From contig CANLWY010000004.1 in NCBI GenBank assembly GCA_947494995.1, positions 1-64,000 of the forward strand: DNA of 64,000 nucleotides, in the 5' to 3' direction. The notes beneath the pieces were generated by a model. That model worked only from the letters and a program-made list of their open reading frames with translations. It did no database searches and was not told the origin of the DNA. The translations under genes and the position numbers were made by a program. Origin of the DNA: an uncultured Campylobacterales bacterium. Lineage in GTDB: Bacteria; Campylobacterota; Campylobacteria; Campylobacterales; Arcobacteraceae. Below, one piece after another: positions 17,598 to 40,545 of the stretch (position 1 is the stretch's first letter; each line of letters begins with the position of its first letter).

Positions 17598-17639
17598 CCC
17601 TCTGAATAGAGAAGCCATTGGGCTTATCTACTCAGAGGG
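17598..17639 (+). promoter_or_regulatory. long hairpin in the tuf leader
   Basis: CCCTCTGA (17598-17605) pairs with TCAGAGGG (17632-17639). The stem continues inward as TAGA/TCTA and AAGCC/GGCTT around a 4-nt loop, broken by two small mismatches. It ends about 35 nt before the tuf ATG. It may be a processing or regulatory structure; it is not followed directly by a T run. Confidence 0.5.
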
Positions 17640-32734: not shown

Positions 32735-33265
32735 TAAAAGAAATAAGCCCTAGAAGGGTTTATCTCTTAAAAAACTTCAATTACTTTATTTAAATCATCA
32801 AAAATTGACTTTTTCTTTTAATCAATTCTGCATAATATAAGTTTTTTAGAAAAATGAAAAAAAATTTGCAAATTTCTTTTTATATTTTTTTTATATTTTT
32901 AAGTAAGTGAAAATATAGATTACTAAAAAATATACTCAATTATTTTGAAATACATTTACTATGTTTTATAATAATTATAAGTAGGCAGAATATAGTATTT
33001 TTATGTAAAATTATTTATATTAAAAAAATAACAAAATTAAACAATTTAATATTTTGAATTTTCTTTTTATATTTTTTTTGCACAAAATAGAAACTCTACA
33101 ACTCCCTTTTTTAGGTGCCTTTTGACATTAGTCAAAAACAAAAAATCAAAATAGTTTTAAACTTTCATTGTACTTTAAACAATTAAGTATAGAAAAATTT
33201 AGGCTTTCAAAAATTATGAAATTTTAAATTTTCTAATTGTTAATAATATAAGTAAGGAGAAATAA
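32735..33265. other. AT-rich intergenic region holding the napA promoter
   Basis: No gene is visible in this 531-bp gap. The first part has a weak AAATAAGCCCT/AGGGTTTAT hairpin after the YciI gene. The middle is very AT-rich without structure I can name. The last 190 bp hold the napA promoter elements listed separately and a long leader of about 96 nt. Confidence 0.6.
33080..33192 (+). promoter_or_regulatory. napA promoter with Crp/Fnr-type box at -41.5
   Basis: The palindrome TTTTGACATTAGTCAAAA (33120-33137) has the TTGAC-N4-GTCAA form of Crp/Fnr-family sites. Its centre (33128.5) lies 29.5 bp before a TAAACT -10 box (33158-33163), which is the class II position -41.5. GCACAAAAT (33080-33088) begins exactly 42 bp before the TTGAC. 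The block after the -10 box (to 33192) matches the nrfH start region closely. Transcription should start near 33170. Confidence 0.65.
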
Positions 33266-36064
33266 ATGGCACTTTCGAGAAGAGAATTTCTTAAAAGTTC
33301 GGCGGCAGCTTCTGCAGCAGCAGCGGTAGGGATGAACGTACCTACACAAATGCAAGCAGCAGCTAAAAATGCTGAAGGTGGCTGGAGATGGGACAAGGCA
33401 GCTTGTAGATTCTGTGGTACAGGTTGTGGAATTATGTTAGCTACTAAAGGTGGTAAAATTGTTGCGGTTAAAGGTGACCCTGCAGCTCCAGTTAATAGAG
33501 GTCTTAACTGTATTAAAGGTTACTTCAATGCAAAAATCATGTATGGTGCGGATAGAATAAAACAACCATTACTAAGAGTTGGCGCTGATGGTAAATTTGA
33601 CAAAAATGGTAAATTTGCTCCTGTATCTTGGGAAAGAGCTTTTGATGAAATGGAAATTCATGCAAGAAAAGCTCTTAAAGAGTCAGGACCTGAAGGTGTA
33701 AGTGTATTAGGTTCAGGACAATACACTATCATGGAAGGTTATGCAGCTCAAAAGATGATGAAGGGTGGATTCAGATCAAATGCAATTGATCCAAATGCTA
33801 GACACTGTATGGCATCTGCGGTTGTTGGTTTTTATCAAACATTTGGTATTGATGAGCCTTCTGGTTGTTATGATGATATTGAGTTAACTGATACTGTAGT
33901 ATGTTGGGGAGCTAATATGGCTGAGATGCACCCAATTCTATGGTCAAGGGTAACTGATAGAAAACTTTCTGATCCTAAAAATGTAAAAGTTGTAAATATT
34001 TCAACTTATAGACATAGAACATCTGATTTAGCAGATATGGAAATTATATTTACTCCAAGTTCAGATTTAGCACTTTGGAATTATATTGCACATGAAATAG
34101 TATTTAATAATCCAGAAGTTATTGATTGGGATTTTGTAAGAGAGCATATTGTATTTGCTGCAAGTCCTGTTAATATGGGTTATGGTATGAAAAGAGCTGG
34201 CGAAAAGTCAATGGATAAATACTCTAATAAAGAGAAAGAAACAATGGTTAAAGAGATGGAAAAAATTGTCTCTGAAACTGAAGCCCCTGCACTTGCTCCA
34301 TATGGATATAAAGCTGGTGATAAGATGGTAAATAAACCCGCTGGATTAAAACACTGGGAAATCTCTTTTGAAGAGTATAAAAAATTCTTAGAGCCTTATA
34401 CACTAGACTATGTAGCAAAAATCTCTAAAGGTGATCCAGATGAAGATATTAATATTTTTAAAAAGAAGTTAAAAGCATTAGCAAATCTTTATATTGAGAA
34501 ATCAAGAAAAGTTGTTTCTTTCTGGACAATGGGTATGAACCAACATACAAGAGGTACTTGGGTAAATACATTAGCTTATAACGTTCACTTCTTACTTAAC
34601 AAACAAGCTAAACCAGGTTCTGGTGCATTCTCATTAACAGGTCAACCATCTGCATGTGGTACTGCTAGAGAAGTTGGTACATTTACACACAGATTACCTG
34701 CTGATATGATGGTTAAAAATCCTAAGCATAGAGCAATCACTGAAAAAGGTTGGAGGGTTCCATCAGGAACACTTAATCCAATAGGAAATCAACATGTTAT
34801 GAAGATATTTCGTGATTTAGAAGATGGTTTTGTAAAATTTACTTGGATTCAAGTAAATAATATGTTCCATACTACTGCATCTGCATCTCACTGGATTAAA
34901 GCAGCGAGAGAGATGGATAACTTTATAGTTTGTTCCGATCCTTATCCCGGTATCTCTGCAAAAGTATCTGACCTTATCTTGCCAACAGCTATGATCTATG
35001 AAAAATGGGGAGCTTATGGAAATGCTGAAAGAAGAACTCAACATTGGAGACAACAAGTATTACCAGCTGGTGATGCCATGTCTGATATTTGGCAAATGGC
35101 TGAATTTATGAAAAGATTTACTGTTAAAGAGTTATGGGGTGAATCTACATTAAGAAATGGTAGTAAATTACCTGATGTAATTAATGAAGCAAAAAAACTA
35201 GGATACAAAGAAGATACTACAATGTATGAAGTTTTATTTGCAAATGAAAGAGCTAAATCATTTAAAGTTGATTTAAATGACCCAATTCAAAAAGGCTTTG
35301 ATAATACAGAGTGTTTAGGGGATAGTAGAAATGTAAAAGGTTCAGATGGTAAACCATGGAAAGGTTATGGTTTCTTCATCCAAAAATATCTATTTGAAGA
35401 GTATGCTGATTTCGGTAGAGGACATGCTCATGACCTTGCAGACTTCGATACTTACCACAGAGTAAGAGGATTAAAATGGCCAGTAGTTGATGGTAAAGAG
35501 ACTCAATGGAGATTTAATACTAAATATGACCCATATGCAAAAAAATATGGTAAGCCAGGTACTGATTTTGCATTCTACGGAACATTAGCAAAAGCATTAT
35601 CTCAAGGTGATTTATTAGGTGTTAAAGAAAAAGCTAAGAAATCTCTTAAAAATAAAGCGAAAATCTTTGCTAGACCATATATGGATCCACCAGAAATGCC
35701 AGATAATGAATACCCATTATGGATGAGTACAGGAAGAATCTTAGAACATTGGCACAGTGGAACAATGACTATGAGAGTTCCAGAGCTTTATAGATCTGCT
35801 CCTGAGGCATTAGTGTATATGCATCCTGACTCTGCTAAGAAGTTTGGAGTTAAACAAGGTCAGTTAGCTTGGGTTGAATCTAGACGTGGTAAAGTAAAAG
35901 CTAGAGTTGAAACTAGAGGAAGAAACAGACCTTCAAGAAATCTTGTTTATGTTCCATTCTTTGATGAAAAAGTATTTATTAATAAAGTTTGTGCTGATTA
36001 TACGTGTCCAATGTCTAAACAAACAGACTTTAAAAAATGTGCGGTAAAAGTTTATAAAGCATAA
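33266..36064 (+). CDS. napA: periplasmic nitrate reductase catalytic subunit NapA
   Basis: NapA (932 residues) reduces nitrate to nitrite in the periplasm with a bis-MGD molybdenum centre. It has a twin-arginine signal (SRREFLK at 4-10, then an Ala-rich stretch), the [4Fe-4S] ligands Cys47, Cys50, Cys54 and Cys82, and the Mo-ligand Cys181 in NARHCMAS. The C-terminal cofactor-binding part ends with the [13 protein letters not shown] segment. AAGGAG precedes ATG. Only napB follows; the usual napG, napH, napF and napL of Campylobacterota are absent here. Confidence 0.95.
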
Positions 36065-36120
36065 ATTACAGATAAATGTTCTTATTTTAAATAAATAATA
36101 AATAAAAAATGGAGAAGAAA

Positions 36121-36741
36121 ATGAAATTAACTAAGATGACTTTAGGACTTTTTGCAGTAGCTACAGTTTTTTTGGTGGGATGTAGTGCCTCAAATCAAAC
36201 AATGAGTGAAGAATCAATTGGGTTAAGGAATACTGATTTATATACAGAGGGTTCAGAAACAGTAGCTGATAAAACTGAATATATAAATAAAACAGCAGGA
36301 GAGAGCGTATTAATAACACGTTCTTTTGAGAATGCACCACCAATGATTCCTCATGCAGTTGAAGGAATGTTACCAATTACTATAAATAACAATGCTTGTA
36401 CAGGATGTCATGTGCCAGGAGTTGCTGAGTCATTAAATGCGACGCCAATACCAAAGTCACATTTTACAGATTATAGACCTGATACATCATTAGCTAAAAA
36501 TGGTAATATGGTTAAAAATGGAAAGATAATTGAAAATACTAGTGATATAAAAACATCAGCAAAAGTATTAAATACTTTATCTGGTACTAGATTTAATTGT
36601 ACAGGGTGTCATGCTCCTCAGTCAATTGCTACAGATGCTCCAATAAAAAATGAGTTTAAAGCTGAGTTTAGAGCTAAAGGTGGTGATAAAAAGTCTAATT
36701 TGATTAACAATATCAATGAAGGTGTAGATACTATTAAATAA
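36121..36741 (+). CDS. napB: diheme cytochrome c NapB, probable lipoprotein
   Basis: NapB (206 residues) passes electrons to NapA. It has two heme c sites, CTGCH at 93-97 and CTGCH at 150-154, and the family segments APPMIPHAVEGMLPI and PIPKSHFTDYRP. The signal sequence ends in a lipobox (LVGC, Cys21), so the protein is predicted to be membrane-anchored rather than freely soluble. The ATG at 36121 is chosen because GGAG at 36111-36114 is its ribosome site; an in-frame ATG 12 bp upstream overlaps that site. A terminator-like hairpin follows. Confidence 0.9.
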   Translation: MKLTKMTLGLFAVATVFLVGCSASNQTMSEESIGLRNTDLYTEGSETVADKTEYINKTAGESVLITRSFENAPPMIPHAVEGMLPITINNNACTGCHVPGVAESLNATPIPKSHFTDYRPDTSLAKNGNMVKNGKIIENTSDIKTSAKVLNTLSGTRFNCTGCHAPQSIATDAPIKNEFKAEFRAKGGDKKSNLINNINEGVDTIK

Positions 36742-36746
36742 AATAT

Positions 36747-36778
36747 AAGAAGAAGAGAGTTTTTCTTTTCTTCTTTTC
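36747..36778 (+). terminator. purine-rich terminator-like hairpin after napB
   Basis: AAGAAGAAGAG (from 36747) pairs with CTTTTCTTCTT (36765-36775) with about one mismatch around a T-rich loop, and is followed by TTCC. It probably ends the napAB transcript. Confidence 0.5.
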
Positions 36779-36793
36779 CTCTATTAAATTTAC

Positions 36794-36837
36794 AAATGGC
36801 ACTTTTTATTTCTCCTTAAAAAATAATGGTGCCATTT
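36794..36837. repeat. 9-26-9 hairpin repeat, copy 1
   Basis: AAATGGCAC (36794-36802) pairs with GTGCCATTT (36829-36837) around a 26-nt loop. The loop and right arm are nearly identical to copy 2, 92 bp downstream. A third member with the same geometry but different stem bases follows nrfA. Confidence 0.7.
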
Positions 36838-36885
36838 GCTAATTTCATATTTGAAACTTTAATAAATTACTTTTATAAAATTTAT

Positions 36886-36929
36886 AAATGGCATCTTTTA
36901 TTTCTCCTTAAAAAATAATGGTGCCATTT
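36886..36929. repeat. 9-26-9 hairpin repeat, copy 2
   Basis: AAATGGCAT (36886-36894) pairs with GTGCCATTT (36921-36929), with one T-G wobble, around a 26-nt loop. It shares about 34 nt almost exactly with copy 1. It lies just before the napD remnant. Confidence 0.7.
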
Positions 36930-36954
36930 ACTGATTTTATAAAAAAGAAATATA

Positions 36955-37044
36955 ATGAAGATAGCAAGTATAGTAGTACAAACAAGACTAGAATATTTAA
37001 AAAAACAAATCATTTTAAGATTTGTTTTTAATACCACCAATTAG
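36955..37044 (+). pseudogene. napD: probable 5' remnant of napD
   Basis: A 29-codon frame starts MKIASIVVQTRLEYLKKQ. This matches the N terminus of NapD-type NapA chaperones, where a short start is followed by a S-I-V-V-Q strand (E. coli has CSLVVQA). After about 18 codons the reading frame enters a perfect 11-bp terminator hairpin and stops. No sequence resembling the rest of NapD (normally about 80-110 residues) is found downstream in any frame. Position after napAB fits, since napD ends the nap operon in this phylum. It could also be a small intact protein by chance. Confidence 0.55.
37001..37029. terminator. intrinsic terminator inside the napD remnant
   Basis: AAAAACAAATC (37001-37011) pairs perfectly with GATTTGTTTTT (37019-37029) around ATTTTAA. 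The A run on one side and T run on the other allow stopping in both directions. It seals the nap locus from the regulator gene. Confidence 0.75.
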
Positions 37045-37062
37045 ACACCAAAAAAAAATATA

Positions 37063-37102: not shown

Positions 37103-37140
37103 ATATTTAATAAATAATTGATGATAAAATGGAGAAAAAA

Positions 37141-37821
37141 ATGTTAAGAAGTTTAAATATATTATATGCTAAGAATGAAGACATTAGTCATAGAAATATG
37201 ATTGAGGCTTTGGAATTTATGTCAATGAATGTAAGAATAGTAACTGATGGAGAAAAAGCATATGAAGAATATCAACGAAGTAAACCAGATATTATAATTT
37301 CTGATGTTGAAATCCCAATATTAAATGGGCTTGAATTGGTAGAGAAAATTCGACAAGAAGATGCTGATATTCAAGTTATTATATTAACAAAATGTACAGA
37401 GGTAGAATGTCTTCTAAAAGCAGTTGAATTAAATATTGCTAAATATTTATTAAAGCATAGTGCTTCTTTTAATGATTTAAAAAATGCATTAATGATTTGT
37501 ATAGAGAATATAACTAAGAAAAAGTCTAAACTATTAAAACATTTTAATAAGAAAGATTACTATGAACTTAATAGTCAAGTTTTATATGTAAATGAAAAAA
37601 TAGTAAGACTTGATTATCATGAAAGAGATTTCTTGGAACTATTATTAAAAAATGATTTAAGAATAGTGACATATAAAGAGATAGAAAATGAAGTTTGGAA
37701 GAATAATATGAGTAGTGCAGCACTTAGATCTTTAGTAAGAAATTTACGTAAAAAACTTCCATTAAATTCAATTGAAAATATCTCAAAAGTAGGGTATAGA
37801 GTTGTAACAGTAAATAACTAA
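37141..37821 (+). CDS. OmpR/PhoB-family response regulator, orphan
   Basis: The 226-residue protein has a receiver domain with acidic Glu13-Asp14, phospho-acceptor Asp55 in IISDVEIP, Thr83 and Lys105. A C-terminal winged helix includes LDYHERDFLELLLKN and SKVGYRVVT. The ATG at 37141 is chosen because GGAG at 37131-37134 is its ribosome site. No histidine kinase gene is next to it. It lies between nap and nrf, so control of nitrate or nitrite respiration is a reasonable but unproven guess. Confidence 0.85.
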   Translation: MLRSLNILYAKNEDISHRNMIEALEFMSMNVRIVTDGEKAYEEYQRSKPDIIISDVEIPILNGLELVEKIRQEDADIQVIILTKCTEVECLLKAVELNIAKYLLKHSASFNDLKNALMICIENITKKKSKLLKHFNKKDYYELNSQVLYVNEKIVRLDYHERDFLELLLKNDLRIVTYKEIENEVWKNNMSSAALRSLVRNLRKKLPLNSIENISKVGYRVVTVNN

Positions 37822-38282
37822 CTCTATATCAGAAAATTTATACACCAAACACCTAAAAAACTTAAAAAAAACTCCAATTTAAACTTTTTATTTTATTATT
37901 AAATCTAATCAATAATTGATAATATCCATAAATTTAAATTTATTAGTATTTCTTTTGCAAAAAGAATTTAAATATTATTAGATTTTAAAAAAAATTTTAA
38001 AATTATTTTATACTTATTTTATACTTTTTAGTGACTAGTTTTTTATTGATACATTTATAGCTTCTATTGGAAATAAATCTGTTAAATAAAGCTTTTATCA
38101 GCACTTTTTTATTAAATGATTTTTTAATTATTATAAGTAATTGGATTTAAAAAAAATGCTTTATACTTTTTTTGCACAAAATGCCATTTTTAGGGCATTG
38201 CCAGATGATGATTCTTTGATTTTCGTCAAGAAATACACATGAAAATAACCTTATACTTTCAGTGTAATTTAAAGGATTAAGT
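37822..38282. other. AT-rich intergenic region holding the nrfH promoter
   Basis: No gene is seen in these 461 bp. The first 330 bp are plain AT-rich sequence, with a TATACTTTTTAGTGAC stretch (near 38020-38036) that recalls the GTGAC sites before the regulator gene. The last 110 bp hold the nrfH promoter elements and an AATGCC/GGCATT hairpin. Confidence 0.5.
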
Positions 38283-38285
38283 ATG
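38174..38285 (+). promoter_or_regulatory. nrfH promoter with Crp/Fnr-type box at -41.5
   Basis: TTGATTTTCGTCAA (38216-38229) is a near-consensus FNR-type site. Its centre (38222.5) is 29.5 bp before a TATACT -10 box (38252-38257), giving position -41.5. GCACAAAAT (38174-38182) begins 42 bp before the box, exactly as at napA. Transcription should start near 38264, 19 nt before the nrfH ATG. Confidence 0.7.
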
Positions 38286-38819
38286 GAAAAAAACAAAATT
38301 GTTGTTTATGGATCAGTTTTAAGTTTTCTTATCGCTATTGGTCTTTTTGGTTACACTGTATATGCATCAAATATGTTGTCATATCTATCTAGTGATCCCA
38401 AAGCATGTATAAATTGCCACACAATGAACTCAGCTTATGCGACTTGGTCAAACAGTTCTCATAAGAATGTTGCAACTTGTGCAGATTGTCATTTACCTGT
38501 AGGTGATGTTGTAGCAAAATATAAATCAAAAGCCATCGATGGCTGGAATCACTCTGTAGCATTTACAATGAATACTTATGAAAATAATATTGACATAAGT
38601 GATGATGGTGCAAATAGAGTACAAGCAAATTGTATTAGATGTCATAGTGATTTAACTGAAACTATGGAATCTAATGCAAACAATTATCATAGCGGTAGTA
38701 CGAATAGCTTAAATGCAGATCGTAAGTGTTGGTCATGCCATAAGTATACACCTCATGGCAAAGTTAGAAGTTTAACATCTACTCCATATAGTATTGGTGT
38801 TAAAGAGAGAATAGAGTAA
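38283..38819 (+). CDS. nrfH: cytochrome c quinol dehydrogenase NrfH
   Basis: NrfH (178 residues) oxidises menaquinol and delivers electrons to NrfA. It has one N-terminal membrane helix (about 8-28) and four heme c sites: CINCH 42-46, CADCH 66-70, CIRCH 117-121 and CWSCH 149-153. A Met after the first motif (HTM) is the type of axial ligand known for NrfH. An AAAGGA site precedes the ATG, and nrfA follows after 19 bp. Confidence 0.95.
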   Translation: MEKNKIVVYGSVLSFLIAIGLFGYTVYASNMLSYLSSDPKACINCHTMNSAYATWSNSSHKNVATCADCHLPVGDVVAKYKSKAIDGWNHSVAFTMNTYENNIDISDDGANRVQANCIRCHSDLTETMESNANNYHSGSTNSLNADRKCWSCHKYTPHGKVRSLTSTPYSIGVKERIE

Positions 38820-38838: not shown

Positions 38839-40308
38839 ATGAAAAGATATAAGGCTTTACTTGCAGGTTCATTACTTGCAATAGGTTGTATGACAGCTTT
38901 AGTTGCATCTATAAATGAAAAAAAGGAGGAACAAGGATTAATTAATACTGTTCCAAAGATTGATAGATGGGAAACAAGAAACGAGGAATATAAAAAAGTC
39001 TATCCAAGACAATATGATTCTTGGAAGCAAACAAAAAATAGTGATGATATAGAAGATTTATTAAAAAAATATCCTGAACTTGTTGTACTTTATGCTGGTT
39101 ATGGTTTTGCAAAAGATTATAACTCTCCAAGGGGGCATTTTTATGCGGTTGAAGAGATTAGAAATACATTAAGAACAGGTGCTCCAAAAGATACAAAAAC
39201 TGGTCCAATGCCAAGTGCATGTTGGACTTGTAAATCTCCAGATGTGCCAAGAATTATGAATGAACAAGGTGATTTAGAATATTTTACTGGAAAATTCTCT
39301 AAGTATGGAACAGAAATTGTTAATCCTCTAGGTTGTGTTGACTGTCATAACCCAGAGACAATGGAGTTATCAGTAAATAGACAATATTTAGATAATGGTT
39401 TAAAGGCTGCTGGTGAAACTTCTTTAGCAGATGCTAAACATCAAGATATGAGATCTTTAGTTTGTGCACAATGTCATGTTGAGTATTATTTTGATAAACA
39501 AGAAAATCCAAAAGGTGGAAAAGCTGCAGTTGTAACATTGCCTTGGTCAGAAGGAACATCTGTTGAAGATATGGAAAAATATTATGACAATATAGATTTT
39601 AAAGATTGGACGCATAAAGTTTCTAAAACTCCAATGTTAAAAGCACAACATCCAGGTTGGGAGATGTGGAAAACAGGTGCACATGGTAAGAATAATGTTT
39701 CTTGTGCAGATTGTCATATGCCTTATAAATCTGAAGGTGGAATTAAATACACAGACCATAATATTGGAAATCCTTTAGATAATATGGAATATTCTTGTAT
39801 GAATTGTCACAGAACTTCTGAAGAGTCTTTACTTTCTAATATCAATGAAAAAAAGAAAAGAAAAGATGAATTACATAAGAAAAATATGAAGCAAATCGCT
39901 GCTGCACACTTAGAAGCTGGTAAAGCTTGGGAAGTTGGTGCAACAAAAGAAGAAATGGCTCCAATTTTAAAAGATATAAGGCATGCTCAATGGAGATGGG
40001 ATTATGCAGTTGCTTCTCATGCGGCATTTTTTCATGCACCAGAAGAGACTTTGAGAATTCTTGGGTCTGCTTTAGAAAAAGCTGGTAATGCTAGAATTAA
40101 ATTAGCAAAAATACTTGCTAAGTATGAAGTGTCTGATTATAAAGCACCAAAAATTTATTCAAAAGAACAAGCTCAAGAGATAACGGGATTACCTTTTGAT
40201 AAATTAATAGAAGATAAGAAAAGATTTAAAGGTACTTTACTAATGGAATGGAAAAAACACGATCCTGAATATATGAAAACTATAGAGGATAAAACTTCAT
40301 ATGACTAG
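38839..40308 (+). CDS. nrfA: pentaheme nitrite reductase NrfA
   Basis: NrfA (489 residues, signal peptide about 1-24) reduces nitrite to ammonium with six electrons. The catalytic heme has the special CWTCK motif at 128-132. Four CxxCH hemes follow: CVDCH (166-170), CAQCH (209-213), CADCH and CMNCH. The C-terminal helices include HAQWRWDYAVASHAAFFHAP. With NapAB upstream it completes nitrate ammonification in the periplasm. Confidence 0.97.
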   Translation: MKRYKALLAGSLLAIGCMTALVASINEKKEEQGLINTVPKIDRWETRNEEYKKVYPRQYDSWKQTKNSDDIEDLLKKYPELVVLYAGYGFAKDYNSPRGHFYAVEEIRNTLRTGAPKDTKTGPMPSACWTCKSPDVPRIMNEQGDLEYFTGKFSKYGTEIVNPLGCVDCHNPETMELSVNRQYLDNGLKAAGETSLADAKHQDMRSLVCAQCHVEYYFDKQENPKGGKAAVVTLPWSEGTSVEDMEKYYDNIDFKDWTHKVSKTPMLKAQHPGWEMWKTGAHGKNNVSCADCHMPYKSEGGIKYTDHNIGNPLDNMEYSCMNCHRTSEESLLSNINEKKKRKDELHKKNMKQIAAAHLEAGKAWEVGATKEEMAPILKDIRHAQWRWDYAVASHAAFFHAPEETLRILGSALEKAGNARIKLAKILAKYEVSDYKAPKIYSKEQAQEITGLPFDKLIEDKKRFKGTLLMEWKKHDPEYMKTIEDKTSYD

Positions 40309-40325
40309 GAATTAGTTTTAAGACT

Positions 40326-40354
40326 AAGAAGGAGAGATAATCCTCTTCTTCTTT
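40326..40354 (+). terminator. terminator-like hairpin after nrfA
   Basis: AAGAAGGAG (40326-40334) pairs with CTCTTCTT (40343-40350), with a small internal mismatch, followed by CTTT. It resembles the purine-rich hairpin after napB. Confidence 0.45.
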
Positions 40355-40377
40355 AGGATTTAAATACTAGAATTTAC

Positions 40378-40421
40378 AAACAGCACCCTTCTAACTTACT
40401 TCTTTACTTTCGGTGCTGTTT
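40378..40421. repeat. 9-26-9 hairpin repeat, copy 3
   Basis: AAACAGCAC (40378-40386) pairs with GTGCTGTTT (40413-40421) around a 26-nt loop. Flanks (AATTTACAAA before, TTTGCTAATT after) match copy 1 after napB. The stem differs at two base pairs, both compensated, while the loop sequence is different. Confidence 0.7.
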
Positions 40422-40545
40422 GCTAATTCTATTTACCTTAATTAAATAATTTAAAGCATTATCTAAAAATATTCTAAATCTTTATTACTGTGACTTTTTA
40501 ATTAGTTTTGTATGATATAATAATTTATGTAATTTAAGGATACTT

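Follow-up and report, generated by a model that had tools for sequence, protein, structure and literature searches.

Known RNAs and the element described here

In the alpha-r14 or "cuckoo" small RNAs, represented by NfeR1 of Sinorhizobium meliloti, the stems vary while the unpaired part keeps an anti-Shine-Dalgarno motif, and NfeR1 has been linked to nitrogen metabolism (PMC10746234). The RepG RNA of Helicobacter pylori carries a C/U-rich loop in its second stem-loop, as part of the terminator, and targets G-repeats, an instance of loop-seeded pairing in Helicobacter. Its gene adjoins that of an orphan response regulator, and a published search did not find repG outside Helicobacter (PMC8295292). 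In E. coli and Salmonella, the small RNA NarS is derived from the 3'UTR of an FNR-controlled mRNA of nitrate respiration, binds Hfq, and regulates another gene of the pathway, nirC (PMC8139620). The small RNAs CcsR1-4 of Rhodobacter sphaeroides, which lie in a row, are processed from the 3'UTR of an mRNA (PMC8625941).

The studied RNAs behind post-transcriptional control in the Campylobacterota are few, and for the Arcobacter group the literature searches made here turned up no study of small RNAs involved in nitrate ammonification. Hfq was found in none of the 21 genomes searched here, with the positive controls being found elsewhere, and a search for CsrA that was positive in six of eight relatives from the order gave no match in any of the 13 genomes tested from the genus. 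As Hfq was not found, a base-pairing RNA would act without it.

The present analysis concerns a window of 64,000 nucleotides (the whole stretch of DNA that was analyzed) from an uncultured bacterium of the Arcobacteraceae (assembly GCA_947494995.1, contig CANLWY010000004.1). A hairpin in this window, SL2, is, on the evidence of sequence comparison, an RNA element absent from Rfam, the shape of which has been kept across bacteria of the Arcobacter group while its sequence has not. It represents a compact candidate for post-transcriptional control, in which a conserved seed is combined with a promoter and a predicted target.

Position and fold of the hairpins

The window carries a second set of nap and nrf genes (Table 1), with the main set being located on another contig (G000 contig C1, 594-605 kb; L060, L148, L158), where nrfA is also followed by a hairpin of its own. 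The number of SL2 hairpins per locus is one, except 3' of napB in the window, where there are two.

Table 1. Genes, promoters, hairpins and loop segments of the second nap/nrf set, with positions in the window.
Feature	Position	Strand	Remarks
napA2 promoter region	33072..33163	+	TTTTGCACAAAA, FNR-like TTGACATTAGTCAA (33122-33135), -10-like TAAACT
napA Shine-Dalgarno region and A of AUG	33253..33266	+	UAAGGAGAAAUAA; leading candidate target
napA	33266..36064	+	second copy in genome
napB	36109..36741	+	second copy in genome
SL1 3' of napB	36747..36775	+	purine/pyrimidine hairpin, upstream of SL2
SL2 copy 1, 3' of napB	36783..36847	+	upper stem of 11 bp, then 2x2 internal loop and lower helix; UCUCCUU in the C/U-containing loop
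Loop of copy 1	36805..36818	+	UUUAUUUCUCCUUA, perfectly complementary to the napA ribosome-binding site
SL2 copy 2, 3' of napB	36875..36939	+	fold as copy 1; upper-stem base C-G to U-A
Loop of copy 2	36897..36910	+	14 nt identical to the copy 1 loop
napD remnant	36955..37044	+	29 codons then stop (MKIASIVVQTRLEYLKKQ...), directly past SL2 copy 2
OmpR-type response regulator	37129..37821	+	homologue adjoins stand-alone elements of relatives
nrfH2 promoter region	38167..38257	+	napA2 layout; FNR-like TTGATTTTCGTCAA (38216-38229), -10 TATACT
nrfH	38283..38819	+	
nrfA	38839..40308	+	
SL1 3' of nrfA	40324..40356	+	upstream of SL2 copy 3
SL2 copy 3, 3' of nrfA	40367..40431	+	fold as copies 1-2; C/U-rich loop without CUCCU core

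An earlier note on this DNA described three hairpins of constant geometry, with a 9-bp stem and a 26-nt loop, two of which were placed 92 bp apart. The placement, copy number, spacing, and 9-26-9 geometry proved correct on re-measurement, as did the two stem pairs that are compensated between copies 1 and 3. The hairpin is real, but the true structure is larger, with an upper stem of 11 bp (36793-36803/36828-36838 in copy 1, 36885-36895/36920-36930 in copy 2, and 40377-40387/40412-40422 in copy 3), separated from a lower helix by a 2x2 internal loop, which folding gives as UA/CU. The ninth pair of copy 2 is U-G. The MFE z-scores of the three copies are -6.2, -6.8, and -9.7, with no shuffle being equally stable, and the arm pattern occurs four times in the window, with two of the occurrences overlapping, whereas 0.26 would be expected. 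The hairpins are not the product of chance. The earlier account was right but understated, and it overlooked the anti-Shine-Dalgarno loop, the complementarity to napA, and the terminator-like hairpin (SL1) that lies upstream of each SL2 site.

Covariation and strand

The argument that a fold conserved through changes of sequence reflects selection on the structure is strongly supported by the double-sided changes in the relatives. These changes were found in 10 of 16 pairs when eight sequences were compared, and in 13 of 16 pairs (47 cells) with 16 sequences, a level reached by none of 500 shuffles, while the controls in which the pairing partner was slid fell far below the 16-sequence covariation score. 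The stems and loops were picked because they fold, which inflates the percentages of pairing, but not the double-sided changes.

The designated pairs include 14 G-U against three A-C appositions, which indicates that the RNA of the plus strand, the strand of nap and nrf, pairs better, and a promoter is found on the plus strand of the element in four genomes. The earlier note had left a choice between an RNA and a binding site, and these two observations favor the RNA, read from the plus strand, over the site. The related idea that the hairpin itself is bound by the response regulator or a protein of the Crp/Fnr type is not supported: the FNR-like box sits in the promoters, outside the hairpin. 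Overall, the structure, strand, and loop of SL2 are well supported.

The strand bias also bears on a reading in which the minus strand is functional, as a hairpin that titrates CsrA through a GGA in its loop. The CsrA sites have an ANGGA core, which the reverse complement of the loop, AAGGAGA, approaches, but the G-U and A-C counts and the promoters favor the plus strand, and none of the 13 genomes tested from the genus yielded CsrA. This reading is highly improbable.

The family across the Arcobacteraceae

A covariance model built from the three copies, as the earlier note had suggested, did recover further members in relatives, with matches 3' of the second napB in genome G007 and downstream of the second napB in G004. 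This model was too narrow, and inspection of the corresponding region elsewhere led to members in G024, G064, and G089, while a model based on eight sequences recovered hairpins 3' of nrfA in G010, G002, and the main nrf locus of the genome under study. The 3' side of every other nrfA found in the family was assessed by synteny, with the model unused, and an SL2 with a C/U-rich loop was found between SL1 and nrfI in 13 of these 22 loci, together with an AT-only hairpin in two and no such hairpin in seven, six of the latter in genus g27, which includes Aliarcobacter. Beside nap2 or a regulator gene, SL2 is present in G004, G007, G024, G064, and G089. In four of these genomes (G004, G024, G064, and G089), from three genera, the hairpin adjoins an OmpR-type regulator gene, and the family search recovered no nrfA match.

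When 349 genomes from the order were searched, the confident members were confined to the Arcobacteraceae. One weak match, in G044 (L275, G044:C88:3453-3504), is flanked by uvrA and a transporter gene. It has a similar loop, AUCUUCC, and a terminator-like hairpin upstream, and is a possible member outside nap and nrf. The matches in G366 and G011:C71, which fall inside coding sequence, and in G011:C91, an ordinary terminator-like hairpin, were treated as chance. The comparison with Rfam matched only tRNAs in the window, and nothing in eight nrf loci.

The searches of the genome itself recovered the element only at nap2, nrf2, and the main nrf locus, and a sequence pattern with fixed flanks added no true copy there, so conservation does not reside in the flanks. 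This restricted distribution, the maintenance of position while the sequences diverge widely, and the strand bias of the wobble pairs all run against the interpretation of SL2 as a mobile or recombination element (REP/MITE-like or attC-like) that would act as folded single-stranded DNA. The two tandem copies and the imperfect stem would fit an element of this type, which is nevertheless very improbable here.

Promoters and gene neighborhood

The view that the nap and nrf units have a promoter in common was borne out, given that the napA2 and nrfH2 promoters align and both contain an FNR-like box. Their common layout, with equal spacing, consists of TTTTGCACAAAA, a downstream FNR-like TTGAY...RTCAA, 22 bp, and the -10 element, with TTTTGCACAAAA being a possible site for the neighboring response regulator. 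The same layout precedes the hairpins of G004, G064, and G089, with a weaker version in G024, and no enzyme gene in between. A direct repeat, CACCAATTAGACACCAAAA, at 37035-37054, upstream of the response regulator gene, is kept upstream of the regulator homologues in G004 and G024, with an altered form in G064, and is a possible autoregulatory site of this gene. In the stand-alone RNA of G024 (L149, G024:C96, ~139404-139418, minus strand), AGGAGAAAUACCAUU is found upstream of SL2 and could pair with the RNA's own AAUGG...UCUCCU, in which case a competing fold would open the hairpin.

The main rival to a regulatory RNA is a cis element, that is, a stabilizer of the mRNA 3' end, a processing site, or a second terminator, which would set the ratio of the abundant enzyme (NapB or NrfA) to the maturation factor encoded downstream (NapD or NrfI). 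The order of enzyme gene, SL1, SL2, and maturation gene, as seen in G007, where napD is intact at the corresponding place, and at 13 nrfA-nrfI junctions, is what such an element would lead one to expect. In the window, however, the SL2 pair has been kept although napD is reduced to a remnant, and in G064 and G089 the element has its own promoter and points toward the end of the response regulator gene, with no co-directional gene downstream, which together indicate that the RNA itself has been kept. No U-run adjoins the SL2 stems, which are followed by GCTAATTT, ACTGATTT, and GCTAATTC, and SL2 is absent from the listing of a terminator scan that permits only loops of 3-8. SL2 thus does not show the G+C-rich stem with an immediate U-run by which an intrinsic terminator is recognized. 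A cis role would also leave the conserved loop unexplained, and the loop pairs with the nrfI start no better than shuffled loops do (-4.6 vs. -4.8 kcal/mol). On this evidence, the cis element appears rather unlikely.

The loop and its candidate target

The loops carry UCUCCUU or UCUUCCUU, with a CUCCU core that is the complement of the Shine-Dalgarno sequence. Of 20 loops, 15 have this core (against a mean of 1.3 and a maximum of 6 in 3000 shuffles) and 17 the wider motif TC(T)CCT, although these figures are only indicative, given that the loop limits were set manually, the motif was picked post hoc, and several of the sequences are closely related. The CUCC core is missing from copy 3 and the G088 loop. 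In terms of functional class, the loop has the conserved Shine-Dalgarno complement, on the transcribed strand, of an anti-Shine-Dalgarno base-pairing RNA.

A stem with a short, conserved single-stranded core would be equally suited to an RNA-binding protein, with the loop binding this protein rather than an mRNA. This is improbable, however, as there is no candidate protein, and the core is a Shine-Dalgarno complement that, for copies 1 and 2, reaches 14 nt at napA, with UUUAUUUCUCCUUA perfectly complementary to UAAGGAGAAAUAAA. These two loops alone carry the 14-mer in the 64-kb window, where napA is the sole site of its complement. In addition, the 3' stem arm, GGUGCCAUUU, is complementary to the napA start, AAAUGGCACU, next to the Shine-Dalgarno region. 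For the loops of copies 1 and 2, napA ranks first among the 54 ORFs of the window, with the gene at 17618 a close second, and the ribosome-binding site of napA2 recurs at the main napA.

Across the genomes, the loops do not pair better with the napA of their own genome than with that of another (p 0.43 by permutation, 0.23 for clade representatives), which supports a general anti-Shine-Dalgarno seed; for the napB-type copies, napA is no more than the best candidate. In most loops of the nrf type, the pairing with napA is little above that of shuffled loops. Pairing with the nrfH start is at the shuffled-loop level, while that with the nrfA start is slightly better than with the nrfI or nrfH starts.

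The 5' arm, AAAUGGCAC, resembles the napA start, a likeness that is also found in G064 (AUGUCA in both). This may be a consequence of the 3' arm being antisense to the napA start, or a coincidence, which is conceivable because most arms of the nrf type read AAATAACACC or AAGTAACACC.

Proposed mode of action

Judging from these sequence features, SL2 probably acts as a small regulatory RNA that is made together with the nitrate and nitrite reductases. It would be a modular RNA hairpin with a loop exposing an anti-Shine-Dalgarno sequence, and would be transcribed in the 3' region of the reductase mRNAs or, in some genomes, as a short RNA of two hairpins (SL1-SL2) from its own copy of the FNR-box promoter. 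The SL2 of the operon copies lies downstream of a terminator-like hairpin, so read-through must be assumed. The loop would pair with the ribosome-binding sites of target mRNAs and block their translation without Hfq. In the case of the napB-type copies, both napA paralogues would be targeted, which would result in feedback or cross-regulation between paralogous nitrate reductases. This specific account, of an Hfq-independent anti-Shine-Dalgarno hairpin RNA, 3'UTR-derived or stand-alone, that blocks translation and, in the case of the napB copies, has napA as its leading target, has about an even chance of being correct; we infer within it the accumulation of the RNA, its pairing in the cell, the repression, and the choice of target.

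A more tentative and, on balance, doubtful extension is a regulon-wide family, in which the nap and nrf operons would control each other's translation through small RNAs of their 3' regions, without either Hfq or CsrA. If this were true, the promoter and hairpin would persist as a stand-alone regulator where the enzyme genes are absent.

Comparison with known RNAs

By the features tested, SL2 is outside the alpha-r14, RepG, and NarS families. It is similar to alpha-r14 in its variable stems and conserved anti-Shine-Dalgarno loop, but alpha-r14 has three hairpins with CCUCCUCCC, whereas SL2 has one or two, with UCUCCUU, and is found in the Campylobacterota, mostly inside operons. The CCUCCUCCC loop motif, three hairpins per RNA, and an Rfam match were all sought in SL2, and none was found. 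The resemblance to RepG lies in the same phylum, the response regulator as a neighbor, and, at the stand-alone loci of G004, G064, and G089, two stem-loops of which the second is C/U-rich. Unlike RepG, whose C/U-rich loop belongs to an intrinsic terminator, SL2 has no U-tail, and it is linked to nap and nrf. CcsR1-4 offer a parallel in their 3'UTR origin and their arrangement in a row, but the host gene and phylum differ, and the processing of SL2 is only hypothetical. In comparison with NarS, no Hfq was found and the target is only a predicted one, but SL2 follows the same genomic logic, that of an RNA from the 3' region of a nitrate-respiration mRNA.
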